Source: Balneola sp. EhC07 (GTDB taxonomy: Bacteria > Bacteroidota > Rhodothermia > Balneolales > Balneolaceae). Taken from it: DNA of 64,000 nt. Positions 59,494 to 62,383 of this stretch are shown here, piece after piece. The position numbers and the translations under genes were made by a program. The notes under the pieces are model-generated. The model was not told where the DNA came from. It did not search any database and saw only the letters and a program-made list of their open reading frames with translations. Position 1 is the stretch's first letter. Each line of letters begins with the position of its first letter. The stretch lies in assembly GCF_001650905.1 (NCBI RefSeq), contig NZ_LXYG01000001.1, positions 124,001 through 188,000 of the forward strand, given 5' to 3'.

Positions 59494-59648
59494 ATTTAGA
59501 ATGGGACTTACAGACTATCTTTGCTGTTGCTTTTAAGTTGTGAACTTGAAAGAGTAAAGAGCTTTATTAAAAAATAAATGGAAAAAATTATTTTGACTTA
59601 CCTAAATAAATTAAAGCGAAACAAGATTGAAATTGGATTATTTTTAAT

Positions 59649-59675
59649 CTCGTTCCGTAGCTCTGCTGCGGAATG
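59649..59675 (+). repeat. Left 27-bp REP-type inverted repeat of the RAYT unit
   Basis: CTCGTTCCGTAGCTCTGCTG and the following CGGAATG are exactly the reverse complement of 60308-60334. The sequence has its own imperfect hairpin (TCCGTAGC/GCTGCGGA). A second hairpin, GGGAGC-TCG-GCTCCC, follows at 59681-59695. REP sequences of this kind are the substrates of REP-associated tyrosine transposases. Confidence 0.78.
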
Positions 59676-59711
59676 CTAATGGGAGCTCGGCTCCCCATTA
59701 CCCCCATTACT

Positions 59712-60242
59712 TTATCTATCAAACACTCGAATAGGAACAAGCCCATCTAATCCTTCATAATTACGTGCAGAAGAATATCTCCATTCAATCTCTCTGTTCA
59801 CAAAACCAGCTTTCACAGGGTTAAAATGGATATAAGATATTTTCTGAATCATCATTTCAGTAGTTCTAATTTGTTTAGGATGAAAGCTTTCCTGCCAGAC
59901 TTTATACTCTGAGTTTTCTTTATTAACCCCATTTTTAAGTCTTTTTAAATAGTATGTTCTATTCGTCTCTGTCAGGTAATCAATAATAGTTCTTGCAGTA
60001 TATGATTTGAATTTACGGAGTTTATCAGAAAGGTTATTTCCTGCCATTATACAATGAAGGTGATCGTGCATAAACACATAGGCATATAGTGTTATTAATC
60101 TTTCTTCCTGCAAAAATCGCAAGGAATTAAGAACTATTTTAGCTACTTCTTGATCTGCAAATAATGAAAGCTGATCATTAAATGTGCTTGTTATGAAGTA
60201 TGGATAATGCTCTTCGTAGATTTTGTATCTGCTTCTTCCCAT
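59712..60242 (-). CDS. REP-associated tyrosine transposase (RAYT, Y1 transposase-like)
   Basis: A 176-residue IS200-like protein. The HUH motif is H-L-H in FMHDHLHCIMAG (residues about 61-63 after the chosen start), and SYIHFNPVKAGFV is the conserved C-terminal RAYT block. Starting at ATG 60242 (MGRSRYKIYEEHYPYFIT) gives the family beginning; an ATG at 60257 adds five residues. It is bracketed by perfect 27-bp inverted REP sequences. RAYTs spread or maintain REP elements and are usually single-copy, domesticated genes. Confidence 0.88.
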   Translation of the reverse strand: MGRSRYKIYEEHYPYFITSTFNDQLSLFADQEVAKIVLNSLRFLQEERLITLYAYVFMHDHLHCIMAGNNLSDKLRKFKSYTARTIIDYLTETNRTYYLKRLKNGVNKENSEYKVWQESFHPKQIRTTEMMIQKISYIHFNPVKAGFVNREIEWRYSSARNYEGLDGLVPIRVFDR

Positions 60243-60307
60243 GTAGGGTAATACCATTTTAGAAGTAATTCCTTACAAAATATTTTTGAAGCAGAGCTTC
60301 TGGTGGT

Positions 60308-60334
60308 CATTCCGCAGCAGAGCTACGGAACGAG
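60308..60334 (-). repeat. Right 27-bp REP-type inverted repeat of the RAYT unit
   Basis: Exact inverted copy of the repeat at 59649-59675, located 66 bp upstream of the transposase gene. Between it and the gene a smaller hairpin (GAAGC-AGA-GCTTC) occurs at about 60290. The symmetrical placement defines a REP-RAYT-REP unit of about 690 bp. Confidence 0.78.
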
Positions 60335-60389
60335 GAAAAGTTCTGTGTCCCTATGTTGTCCCCAGAATGGTAAGCATTGACAATCATGT

Positions 60390-60435
60390 GAAAACAAAAA
60401 ACCCCTGTAACTCTATAAATATATGAGCTACAAGG
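60390..60435 (-). terminator. Displaced tRNA-type terminator
   Basis: On the minus strand CCUUGUAGCUC pairs with GAGUUACAGGG (two wobbles) and is followed by GTTTTTTGTTTTC. It follows directly after the duplicated tRNA-Leu 3' end at 60440-60455, reproducing the tRNA-then-terminator order seen at the intact tRNA. It looks like the original terminator of the tRNA gene, separated from it by insertion of the island. Confidence 0.62.
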
Positions 60436-60439
60436 CTTT

Positions 60440-60455
60440 AAAGTACCCGAGGCCG
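60440..60455 (-). other. Duplicated tRNA-Leu 3' end (att-like direct repeat, left)
   Basis: AAAGTACCCGAGGCCG is identical to 62293-62308, which covers the last 12 bases of tRNA-Leu plus four flanking bases. The rest of the tRNA is missing here, so this is a 3' fragment as left by site-specific integration into the tRNA 3' end. The repeats are 1,853 bp apart and flank the toxin-antitoxin-chaperone genes. Confidence 0.7.
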
Positions 60456-60563
60456 TAATACTGGAGTCTAAAATAGACGAAATTACATTTCAAATAGCAA
60501 AAAGGTGTGCCTATTGTAATTAATATTGCGAAATCAATATTATTTTTTACTATTTAAGATATC

Positions 60564-60586
60564 AACATCGACCAATATGGAGACCA
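60564..60586. repeat. 23-bp direct repeat, left copy
   Basis: AACATCGACCAATATGGAGACC with a final A matches 62216-62238 at 21 of 23 positions. The two copies lie inside the tRNA-derived repeats and outside the three-gene operon, so they mark a second boundary about 1.65 kb apart, perhaps recombinase arm sites. Confidence 0.6.
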
Positions 60587-60741
60587 GATTATCGCTCTTT
60601 TTGGCTTAAAAATATTTGGCAGATAATGGAATTTTAGCTATTGATTAAAATCAATAATTTCTGTTGTTTAATTCCGTAGTTATTAACTGGTATAAATTGT
60701 TTTACAAAAAATATTTTTTAATAGTTTAGATATATCTTAAC

Positions 60742-61167
60742 TTGATAGAACTGGAAAAACAAGGTAAAAAACACTTAGTCGTAAGTGTAAACAAAAATTT
60801 AGGTAACAAGATGAGTTACTCGGATTTTTGTGCAGATGAAAATTATGTTAAGTCTAGTGATATAATTATAAGTAAAATTGACTCCTTAGCTGATAATGGG
60901 TACGAAGTTGTTAGAAGACAGAAATGTTATTCAGTGGCTCAGGGTCATACAAACTTGTTGTACATAAAAGAAGGTTCAAAAGTTATAAGAATACCATTCA
61001 CAATTGAGGAAATTTGTGATCATTCAGTTATAATTTTAACTCATGTTTTTGTTAAAGATAAAAAGAATAAAGAAAACCTTGAGTTCAAATCAGCTGATAA
61101 AATTATTACGAACACTTTAAAATGGATCAGTGAAAATGAAAAAAAGTTTCAGAAACTTATTAAGTAG
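60742..61167 (+). CDS. HigB/Gp49-like toxin of a TAC module (putative)
   Basis: A 141-residue soluble protein. The start is taken as the TTG at 60742, the first usable codon after an in-frame TAG at 60727; an internal ATG at 60811 is possible. The C-terminal half, with KVIRIPFTIEE, SVIILTHVFVKDKKNKENLE and FKSADKIITNTLKWI, resembles the final strand and helix of RelE/HigB (Gp49-like) toxins, which usually show a hydrophobic strand, a V/G-F-x-K-K turn and a charged helix. The N-terminal half is longer than in HigB. It overlaps the antitoxin gene by 32 bp. An mRNA-cleaving role is inferred from context. Confidence 0.6.
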   Translation: MIELEKQGKKHLVVSVNKNLGNKMSYSDFCADENYVKSSDIIISKIDSLADNGYEVVRRQKCYSVAQGHTNLLYIKEGSKVIRIPFTIEEICDHSVIILTHVFVKDKKNKENLEFKSADKIITNTLKWISENEKKFQKLIK

Positions 61168-61594
61168 TTATCCAGAAAGTAAAAGAGATAGATTCTCTAA
61201 ACGATTAACTAAATTTGATTTTAGAGCTAGCCTGTTTCTGGAAGAATTTTCTGCATCAATATTAAAACAACTCAAAGACAATAATGGAAAAAAGAAAGAT
61301 ATTGCAGAAAAATTAGACATTTCTAAATCAGCCGTTACGCAACTATTAGACCCAAAAACTAATATTTCAATATTGAAAATATTTGAACTAGCAAATGCGG
61401 TTGGAATGACACCTGATTTTTTGGAATTGATTGACGTGTCTGATTGTTTAGAAGAGGGTGTTGAGGTTGAGAATGAATCGCGTATTGACACTTCAAATAA
61501 TTATTTTATGACTCTACATAAAAATACGAATTCAAGCACTACTGAAATTAGTAGTAAGGACTCAGATGAATTTGTTCTAGCATTGGTTCAATGA
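61136..61594 (+). CDS. XRE-family antitoxin (HigA-like) with C-terminal tail
   Basis: A 152-residue protein with a helix-turn-helix at residues 52-97 (KKKDIAEKLDISKSAVTQLL and NISILKIFELANAVGMTPDF), the HigA/XRE type. Residues 101-152 form an extra, acidic and Ser/Thr-rich tail (ESRIDTSNNYFMTLHKNTNS) ending in FVLALVQ. In chaperone-controlled TA systems, such a tail (ChAD) makes the antitoxin depend on the SecB-like chaperone. ATG 61136 is used; a GTG at 61130 is in frame. Both ends overlap neighbours (32 bp and 4 bp), indicating coupled translation. Confidence 0.78.
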   Translation: MKKSFRNLLSSYPESKRDRFSKRLTKFDFRASLFLEEFSASILKQLKDNNGKKKDIAEKLDISKSAVTQLLDPKTNISILKIFELANAVGMTPDFLELIDVSDCLEEGVEVENESRIDTSNNYFMTLHKNTNSSTTEISSKDSDEFVLALVQ

Positions 61595-62040
61595 AAAAGA
61601 ATATTCAATACCGTTATACAAATATTTTTTTAGTGAGTTCAAATATTATCGAGCCCCGAGTTAGTGACATTAATGAGGCTATTGGAGGACAACCTATTAA
61701 AATACAGACTGAAACATCTTATGATAAAGATACAAATGAATGTTTTTTGGATATAAGAGTAATGTTGCAATCTAAATTAACGAATGAAGAGCTTATCGAT
61801 GTAAGGTTGAGAAGTTCTTTTATAATAAAAGGAATTGAAGCGGAAGACATCGATAAGGAAGAAAATATAGGGATATTGGAAACACTAGTTTCTTTATCAT
61901 ATTCAAGTACAAGAGGTTATTTAGCATCACTACTTACAAACTATCGATATAAAGATAAAGTTTTCCTTCCCGTAGTTCCTCCTAAAAAGTTAATCGAAAA
62001 AAAAGCTAAAGAGAATAAAGACGTTGAAAAGAAATCTTGA
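61591..62040 (+). CDS. SecB-like chaperone of a TAC module
   Basis: A 149-residue protein that follows the SecB plan: N-terminal strand (YTNIFLVSSNIIEPR), central strands (PIKIQTETSYDK, CFLDIRVMLQSKLTNEELIDV, FIIKGIEAEDI), then the helix SLSYSSTRGYLASLLTN and the SecB-specific Pro-rich end LPVVPPKKLI, which parallels E. coli LAPVNFDALF. The tail is lysine-rich. A true housekeeping SecB would not be expected beside a HigA-like gene; here a 4-bp overlap joins them, as in Rv1955-1957 of Mycobacterium. The chaperone would protect the antitoxin. Confidence 0.78.
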   Translation: MKKNIQYRYTNIFLVSSNIIEPRVSDINEAIGGQPIKIQTETSYDKDTNECFLDIRVMLQSKLTNEELIDVRLRSSFIIKGIEAEDIDKEENIGILETLVSLSYSSTRGYLASLLTNYRYKDKVFLPVVPPKKLIEKKAKENKDVEKKS

Positions 62041-62215
62041 TTTAGTATAGACAGACAATTGTGTCATTTCTTTATTAAGTATGTCTATAATTACTACAGC
62101 ATTTTAAAAAGCTGGAATAAATTATCTTTTGTGCTCAAAAAAAGAGGAATTCATTTTATTGAGTAGTAATCTTCAAGCTAAATAAATTTAAAAGAGGCTA
62201 CAAAGTGTAGACTCG

Positions 62216-62238
62216 AACATCGACCAATACCGAGACCA
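62216..62238. repeat. 23-bp direct repeat, right copy
   Basis: AACATCGACCAATACCGAGACC plus A, two mismatches to 60564-60586. It lies directly beyond the tRNA terminator, at the island's inner edge. Confidence 0.6.
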
Positions 62239-62292
62239 AAACAAAAATAGCCTCTTGTAAGTTGTTATAAAAAATATACTTACAAAAGGCTA
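62234..62292 (-). terminator. Terminator of tRNA-Leu
   Basis: TAGCCTCTTGTAAG (62248-62261) pairs with CTTACAAAAGGCTA (62279-62292) with one mismatch over 14 bp. The minus strand continues with TATTTTTGTTTTGG. It begins immediately after the tRNA 3' flank, so it terminates the tRNA transcript. Confidence 0.8.
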
Positions 62293-62308
62293 AAAGTACC
62301 CGAGGCCG
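62293..62308 (-). other. tRNA-Leu 3' end att-like direct repeat, right
   Basis: Intact copy of the 16-bp sequence also found at 60440-60455. It covers the end of the T-stem and acceptor stem, the usual crossover region of tyrosine-recombinase elements that use tRNA genes. Confidence 0.7.
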
Positions 62309-62383
62309 GACTCGAACCGGCACTCCAATTTAATTAGAATTGGATTTTAAGTCCAACGTGTCTACCAATTCCACCACTCGGGC
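62297..62383 (-). tRNA. tRNA-Leu (anticodon TAA)
   Basis: An 87-nt type II tRNA. The acceptor stem GCCCGAG/CTCGGGT pairs perfectly in RNA terms; the D-arm has TGGTGGAATTGGTAGACA; the anticodon stem-loop TTGGA-CTTAAAA-TCCAA gives anticodon TAA; a long variable arm (TTCTAATTAAATTGGAGT region) follows; and the T-arm is CCGG-TTCGAGT-CCGG. CCA is not encoded (the discriminator A is followed by CTT). Its last 12 bases form part of the duplicated att-like repeat. Confidence 0.93.

Follow-up and report, generated by a model that had tools for sequence, protein, structure and literature searches.

A putative toxin-antitoxin-chaperone operon as the very probable sole cargo of a small tRNA-Leu element without an integrase in Balneola sp. 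EhC07

Within the 64,000-nucleotide stretch of the Balneola sp. EhC07 genome analysed here (the window), three overlapping genes at 60440-62308 lie between the copies of a 16-bp tRNA-Leu duplication and of an inner 23-bp repeat, and the locus raises the question of what these genes encode and by what means they came to this tRNA gene. An earlier note had proposed a toxin-antitoxin-chaperone (TAC) operon in a minimal tRNA-Leu island, and the layout it described was recovered in full: the open reading frame (ORF) calls gave overlaps of 32 bp between genes 1 and 2 and of 4 bp between genes 2 and 3, both sets of repeats were present, and the ORF list contained no recombinase between them. Sigma-70-like sites were no commoner in the region than in shuffled sequence, and no promoter is claimed. 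We consider it very probable that a 1.85-kb integrated element carries a TAC operon and no other cargo, and that the operon acts by the mechanism proposed below. The features of the locus are collected in Table 1.

Table 1. Features of the TAC element and its tRNA-Leu site, in window coordinates
Feature	Position	Strand	Remark
tRNA-Leu (UAA), integration target	62296-62383	-	ARAGORN; only tRNA in the window
att core, proximal (tRNA 3' end)	62293-62308	.	exact 16-bp repeat AAAGTACCCGAGGCCG
att core, distal	60440-60455	.	exact 16-bp repeat AAAGTACCCGAGGCCG
23-bp inner repeat, proximal; putative arm-type integrase site	62216-62238	+	54 bp from core
23-bp inner repeat, distal; putative arm-type site	60564-60586	+	108 bp from core
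Terminator-like hairpin from the element, behind the tRNA gene	62240-62296	-	-20 kcal/mol, z -6.65
Second tRNA-terminator-like hairpin, outside distal core	60385-60442	-	-18.7 kcal/mol, z -6.02
Other arm-like site GTCCCTATGTTGTCCC, outside distal core	60347-60362	+	exact-copy search
Gene 1, putative Gp49/HigB-type toxin, 141 aa	60742-61167	+	TTG start; 118 aa if begun at the ATG at 60811
Gene 2, putative HTH (XRE-type) antitoxin with C-terminal tail, 152 aa	61136-61594	+	
Gene 3, predicted SecB-like TAC chaperone, 149 aa	61591-62040	+	
Tract near-identical with sister species G007	60751-62163	.	2 mismatches in 1,413 bp

The same tRNA-Leu site was compared in seven congeners (G001-G007), and only one of the seven, G007, was occupied by the element. 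The tRNA-Leu of G002 and G004 was followed by its own terminator with no TAC, G003, G005 and G006 were also devoid of a TAC, and G001 carried a different island remnant at this position. This absence from six congeners ruled out the reading of the block as ancestral chromosome; judged from the same comparison, the block is an inserted element, as had been proposed. The 16-bp repeat pair was not a chance occurrence, as two copies with up to two mismatches were found in none of 100 dinucleotide shuffles of the window. Thus both a tRNA 3' duplication and empty sites in relatives, as expected of a tRNA-targeting element, were found, while an integrase of its own was not.

The two copies of the inner 23-bp repeat were 91% identical, and the proximal one contained two GACCA half-sites 12 bp apart. 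Exact copies of the 18-base core of this repeat occurred only at this tRNA-Leu site, in three of about 60 related genomes (two copies in the window's genome, two in G007 and one in G001, the last beside an integrase-like fragment), with no control matches. A sequence similar to the hairpin behind the tRNA gene was also present in G001, where it adjoined the same tRNA. These ends could be compared with those of a complete element, L120, in the sister Balneola species G004, which targets a tRNA-Phe and whose arms are 28-bp direct repeats, each with two GGGAC half-sites. Common to both elements are the duplication of a tRNA 3' end as core, the terminator, paired arms that lie as direct repeats within the two ends and the same asymmetry, the arm-core distances being approximately 76 bp (proximal) and 117 bp (distal) in L120 as against 54 and 108 bp in the window. 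In contrast, L120 is about 5 kb in length, has a duplicated core of 48 bp as compared with just 16 bp, differs in arm sequence, and carries other cargo together with a tyrosine integrase with an Arm-DNA-bind_3 domain, the gene for which lies at the distal arm. Because the order, orientation and asymmetry of arms and cores agree with those of L120, the window element looks like an L120-type element lacking its integrase. Combining a TAC as sole cargo with integration-type recombination sites within approximately 1.85-1.9 kb, it is unusually minimal in its packaging.

Outside the distal core, the second hairpin was read as the displaced earlier end, and the sole other exact copy of the arm-like site GTCCCTATGTTGTCCC among eight Balneola genomes was found in G007 (contig C18), beside a partial tRNA-Leu. 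Together, this site and the second hairpin suggest that an older element previously occupied the same tRNA-Leu. The partial tRNA-Leu in G007, with its terminator and arm-like site (L054:8350-8500), lies inside a stretch of about 40 kb bounded by a tRNA-Phe and by a tRNA-Phe 3' duplicate beside an integrase (L109), apparently a case of nested elements.

Several further observations were made in the vicinity. An IS200-like transposase gene (Y1_Tnp, E 2e-4) at 59640-60340 of the window is flanked by short TTCCGTAGCTCTGCTGCGGAA-type palindromic repeats, of which many scattered copies were found in the Balneola genomes searched, and it looks like a REP-associated transposase. A 95% identical transposase block in G001 (L048:3629-4316) adjoins, and apparently truncates, the integrase-like fragment by the tRNA-Leu, and its position relative to the tRNA differs from that in the window. 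G001 also encodes a 1078-aa repeat protein between the tRNA-Leu and an outer membrane protein gene (L048:5604-8840); a gap of similar size was seen in G002 and G004 (L047, L049), and the repeat protein was absent from this position in the window's genome and in G007.

Comparison with G007 was used to follow the recent history of the element. The flanks of the two species were 89-95% identical over most of their length, with 97% in the first gene to the right, and the three genes lay within the near-identical tract of Table 1. The element's own ends were approximately 2-8% diverged, more than the genes, the right end (62164-62295, including the arm) showing 11 mismatches, or about 8%. Since the ends are more diverged than the genes, the exchanged tract lies within the element, and recent recombination between the species probably exchanged the gene block; transfer of the whole element is not thereby proven. 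The element is in this respect a mosaic, with near-identical TAC genes beside a more diverged right end.

The earlier note had further suggested that the element may spread through a recombinase supplied in trans. The recombination anatomy is present as described, but no integrase locus read in the genome carries the arm motif. Eight PF00589 matches were obtained in the window's genome, the surroundings of six of mobile type were read, and none of these was accompanied by the arm CGACCAATANNGNGACCA; a locus in this genome (G000:C16, L111:5110-10490) holds two integrase copies, one truncated, with a tRNA-Phe 3' fragment and a GGGACAC-type arm. No helper with the motif was found in about 60 related genomes. 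The motif was matched 44 times in IMG/VR; these matches mostly fell within ORFs, no tRNA lay near any of them, and they were put down to chance. The only candidate relative of the missing integrase is the broken integrase-like fragment in G001, called by motif only (H-x-x-R ... W, followed nine residues later by Y), for which Pfam gave no match, PHROGs and phages gave none that was credible, and neither 127 genomes of the order nor 394 of the phylum contained a relative. Mobilisation in trans is thus plausible but unproven.

We lean towards a remnant over mobility by a borrowed integrase, and give about even chances to the reading that a larger, integrase-bearing tRNA-Leu island lost its integrase by deletion, that the TAC was retained by addiction and that no site-specific movement now takes place, the identity with G007 being due to ordinary homologous recombination or gene conversion. 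Such a history is consistent with the failure to find a cognate integrase in the genome, with the occurrence in G001 of the same arm and terminator by the tRNA together with a broken integrase-like fragment, and with a high-identity tract that ends inside the element, resembling recombination across the genes and not transfer of the whole. However, two species each retain an intact pair of arms and an intact pair of cores at the correct spacing, and the integrase region would have to have decayed neatly, so that nothing of it is left between arm and toxin.

A true non-autonomous satellite, which has kept its cores and arms and relies for movement on the integrases of co-resident or incoming elements, is a less likely reading, to which we would give somewhat under one chance in three. 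The order, orientation and asymmetric spacing shared with L120, the presence of the arm motif beside the island remnant in G001, and the occurrence of the element in G007 with its absence from six congeners all argue for it; the lack of a helper with this arm in about 60 related genomes or in IMG/VR argues against it, as does the observation of no second integration site. More doubtful still is the wider proposal of a class of minimal TAC satellites of less than 2 kb, made up of core sites, paired arms and a TAC operon, which would borrow integrases, persist by chaperone-controlled addiction and, where they are integrated, also protect against phage with the same module. The remnant and satellite readings differ on mobility only, and the identity of the operon as a TAC is common to both.

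As a single sequence, gene 3 gave nothing credible against Pfam, NCBIfam, PHROGs and PDB, and no match to the Pfam SecB family (PF02556) at E values up to 10; some TAC chaperones are known to be missing from PF02556 (PMC4257090). It did match the PADLOC model PDC-M64C (E 3e-7), a model also matched by all 18 of the SecB-like proteins scanned, and the only PDB matches of a profile built from 18 gene 3 relatives were SecB (E 0.18). The AlphaFold2 model of gene 3 (pLDDT 76.8) showed a four-stranded sheet and a long helix. In Foldseek, SecB or Rv1957 filled the first 19 rows (probability 1.00, with E from 4e-5 to 6e-4), and VIA gave Z 11.6 to SecB and 9.0 to the M. tuberculosis TAC chaperone (5mtw), with unrelated rows at 5.5. 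Gene 3 is thus predicted to have the SecB fold, a four-stranded antiparallel sheet with a long helix, and its description as SecB-like was borne out by the structural model.

Gene 1 probably starts at the TTG at 60742 and not at the ATG at 60811, because its homologues align from that residue: those at L037/L070 and L057/L071 start MIEL or MLEL (MIELYYSG, MLELYTYD) and align with the TTG-initiated MIELEKQG. The divergence of the toxin described earlier was confirmed, as gene 1 reached no Pfam family and single-sequence searches assigned it to none. The L037 homologue scored 14.7 bits against Pfam Gp49, below the cut-off of 23.9, and gene 1 is accordingly not filed as a member of this family and is a distant relative only. 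A profile of four close homologues was then compared with Gp49 proteins from the same bacterial order, and aligned over 104 columns (E 5.5e-5, probability 66), the four other profiles tried giving 0.1-0.5%. In this alignment K76, R83 and F103-x-K105 of gene 1 coincide with the basic and aromatic positions of Gp49 toxins; in the TAC toxin of M. tuberculosis the residues used are R68, R77 and F93-x-K95 (PMC9098466). The structural model of gene 1 was weak (pLDDT 58.5) and Foldseek gave nothing below E 0.05. With VIA the top match of this low-confidence model was M. tuberculosis HigB1 (7awk; Z 8.4, rmsd 4.0, 113 residues), and almost all of the rows shown belonged to the RelE/HigB superfamily, a fold assignment that the profile comparison backs. 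We therefore read gene 1 as a distant RelE/HigB superfamily member and a divergent, presumably toxic protein of Gp49/HigB type. A DUF4268 or restriction-nuclease identity was considered and placed below Gp49.

The HTH_3 match of gene 2 covered residues 45-96 of 152 at E 1.2e-4, just under Pfam's cut-off, and left a C-terminal tail of some 55 aa. The chaperone-addiction (ChAD) tails of known TACs have no significant sequence similarity to each other (PMC5105189), so the function of this tail is not readable from its sequence; by analogy, it is compatible with a ChAD region.

Relatives of gene 3 were found in 12 of 394 genomes of the phylum and 13 of 129 genomes of the order, and nearly all of the loci inspected had the order toxin, HTH protein, SecB-like protein; the exceptions were L038, which ends at a contig edge, and L068, in which the toxin frame is short and probably broken. 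The toxins beside these relatives were PDC-M64-like, HigB-like by eye (L040, L064, L069) or of the window type (L037, L057, L058). This variety agrees with the account that SecB genes joined different TA families several times and carry signatures of horizontal transfer (PMC4257090). Three loci, including the copy in the sister species, were obtained from a scan of 84,980 species, which reaches close relatives only, and neither gene 1 nor gene 3 had a relative in IMG/VR, phages or plasmids. Weak single matches to Flavi_DEAD, AimR, Na(+)-NQR and a capsid were attributed to chance and set aside. A type II TA pair and a SecB-like chaperone gene are thus found in one operon, as seen from the overlaps, the predicted SecB fold and the gene order of related loci. 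The order and identity first proposed therefore stood, and a TAC of a known kind with a rare or divergent toxin lineage is well supported.

To the computed operon layout, SecB fold, Gp49 profile homology, insertion polymorphism and arm/core anatomy we add a mechanism for toxicity, chaperone dependence, trigger and movement that we infer with the help of TACs in other species (PMC5105189, PMC9098466, PMC11618068, PMC11980606). The gene 1 toxin would most likely act as a ribosome-dependent mRNase and halt translation, while gene 2, as a HigA-like antitoxin, would bind the toxin and probably repress the operon. The C-terminal tail of gene 2 would prevent it from folding stably alone, and gene 3, as a dedicated SecB-like chaperone, would bind this tail and keep the antitoxin folded. 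Diversion of the chaperone, by new phage structural proteins as in characterised TACs or by export stress, would lead to degradation of the antitoxin, and the freed toxin would stop growth in a response of the abortive-infection type, which would also make the element hard to lose. In CmdTAC, a phage structural protein titrates the chaperone and the toxin is released (PMC11618068), and the same type of trigger was reported for HigBAC (PMC11980606); a phage defence role for the window operon is proposed by analogy. Entry at the tRNA-Leu 3' end would have been by site-specific recombination through a tyrosine integrase not encoded on the element. That gene 1 is some other effector, such as a nuclease, and not a translation-dependent mRNase is improbable: TACs with different toxins are known, CmdTAC shows that an ADP-ribosyltransferase can be a TAC toxin (PMC11618068) and the top Pfam match of the L037 homologue is DUF4268 (E 3e-4), followed by Gp49 (E 0.03), but the long Gp49 profile alignment with its agreeing basic residues and the predominance of RelE/HigB in the structural comparison argue against it.

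The locus would extend TACs to a toxin lineage unrecognised by Pfam and PADLOC, and it provides an example in which a TAC is all that is carried by an element whose integrase-type ends are intact. To our knowledge there has been little experimental work on TACs in the host's bacterial lineage. If mobilisation in trans is true, it would explain how TACs are scattered across lineages without transfer genes (horizontal transfer signatures: PMC4257090), and would provide a very small system in which to ask whether defence and self-maintenance are the same thing.

Among known systems, gene order and chaperone family tie the window operon to the catalogued PADLOC candidate system PDC-M64, with which it has in common the order toxin, HTH protein, chaperone. 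Component C was matched (E 3e-7) and component B weakly (E 0.012), the antitoxin being common at HTH level only. In contrast, the toxin was unmatched by the PDC-M64 toxin models, and the gene 1 profile did not align with their profiles (0.3%), indicating a distinct toxin lineage; the window operon is therefore not a full PDC-M64 system, such as that matched at L043. With the E. coli anti-phage TACs HigBAC and CmdTAC it shares the three-gene logic, and its chaperone weakly matches PD-T4-9_C (E 0.023); CmdT, however, is an ADP-ribosyltransferase, whereas the window toxin is predicted to be of Gp49 type. A further likeness in plan is to the M. tuberculosis TAC, HigB1-HigA1-SecB(TA) (Rv1955-Rv1956-Rv1957), which has the same gene order, an HTH antitoxin with a C-terminal tail, a Gp49-type toxin with a long C-terminal helix (7awk, the best VIA match) and a SecB-fold chaperone (5mtw). 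Identity between the two is very low, at approximately 9-13% in structural alignments, the tail is different, and, in contrast to the M. tuberculosis system, that of the window rides on a minimal element at a tRNA site.
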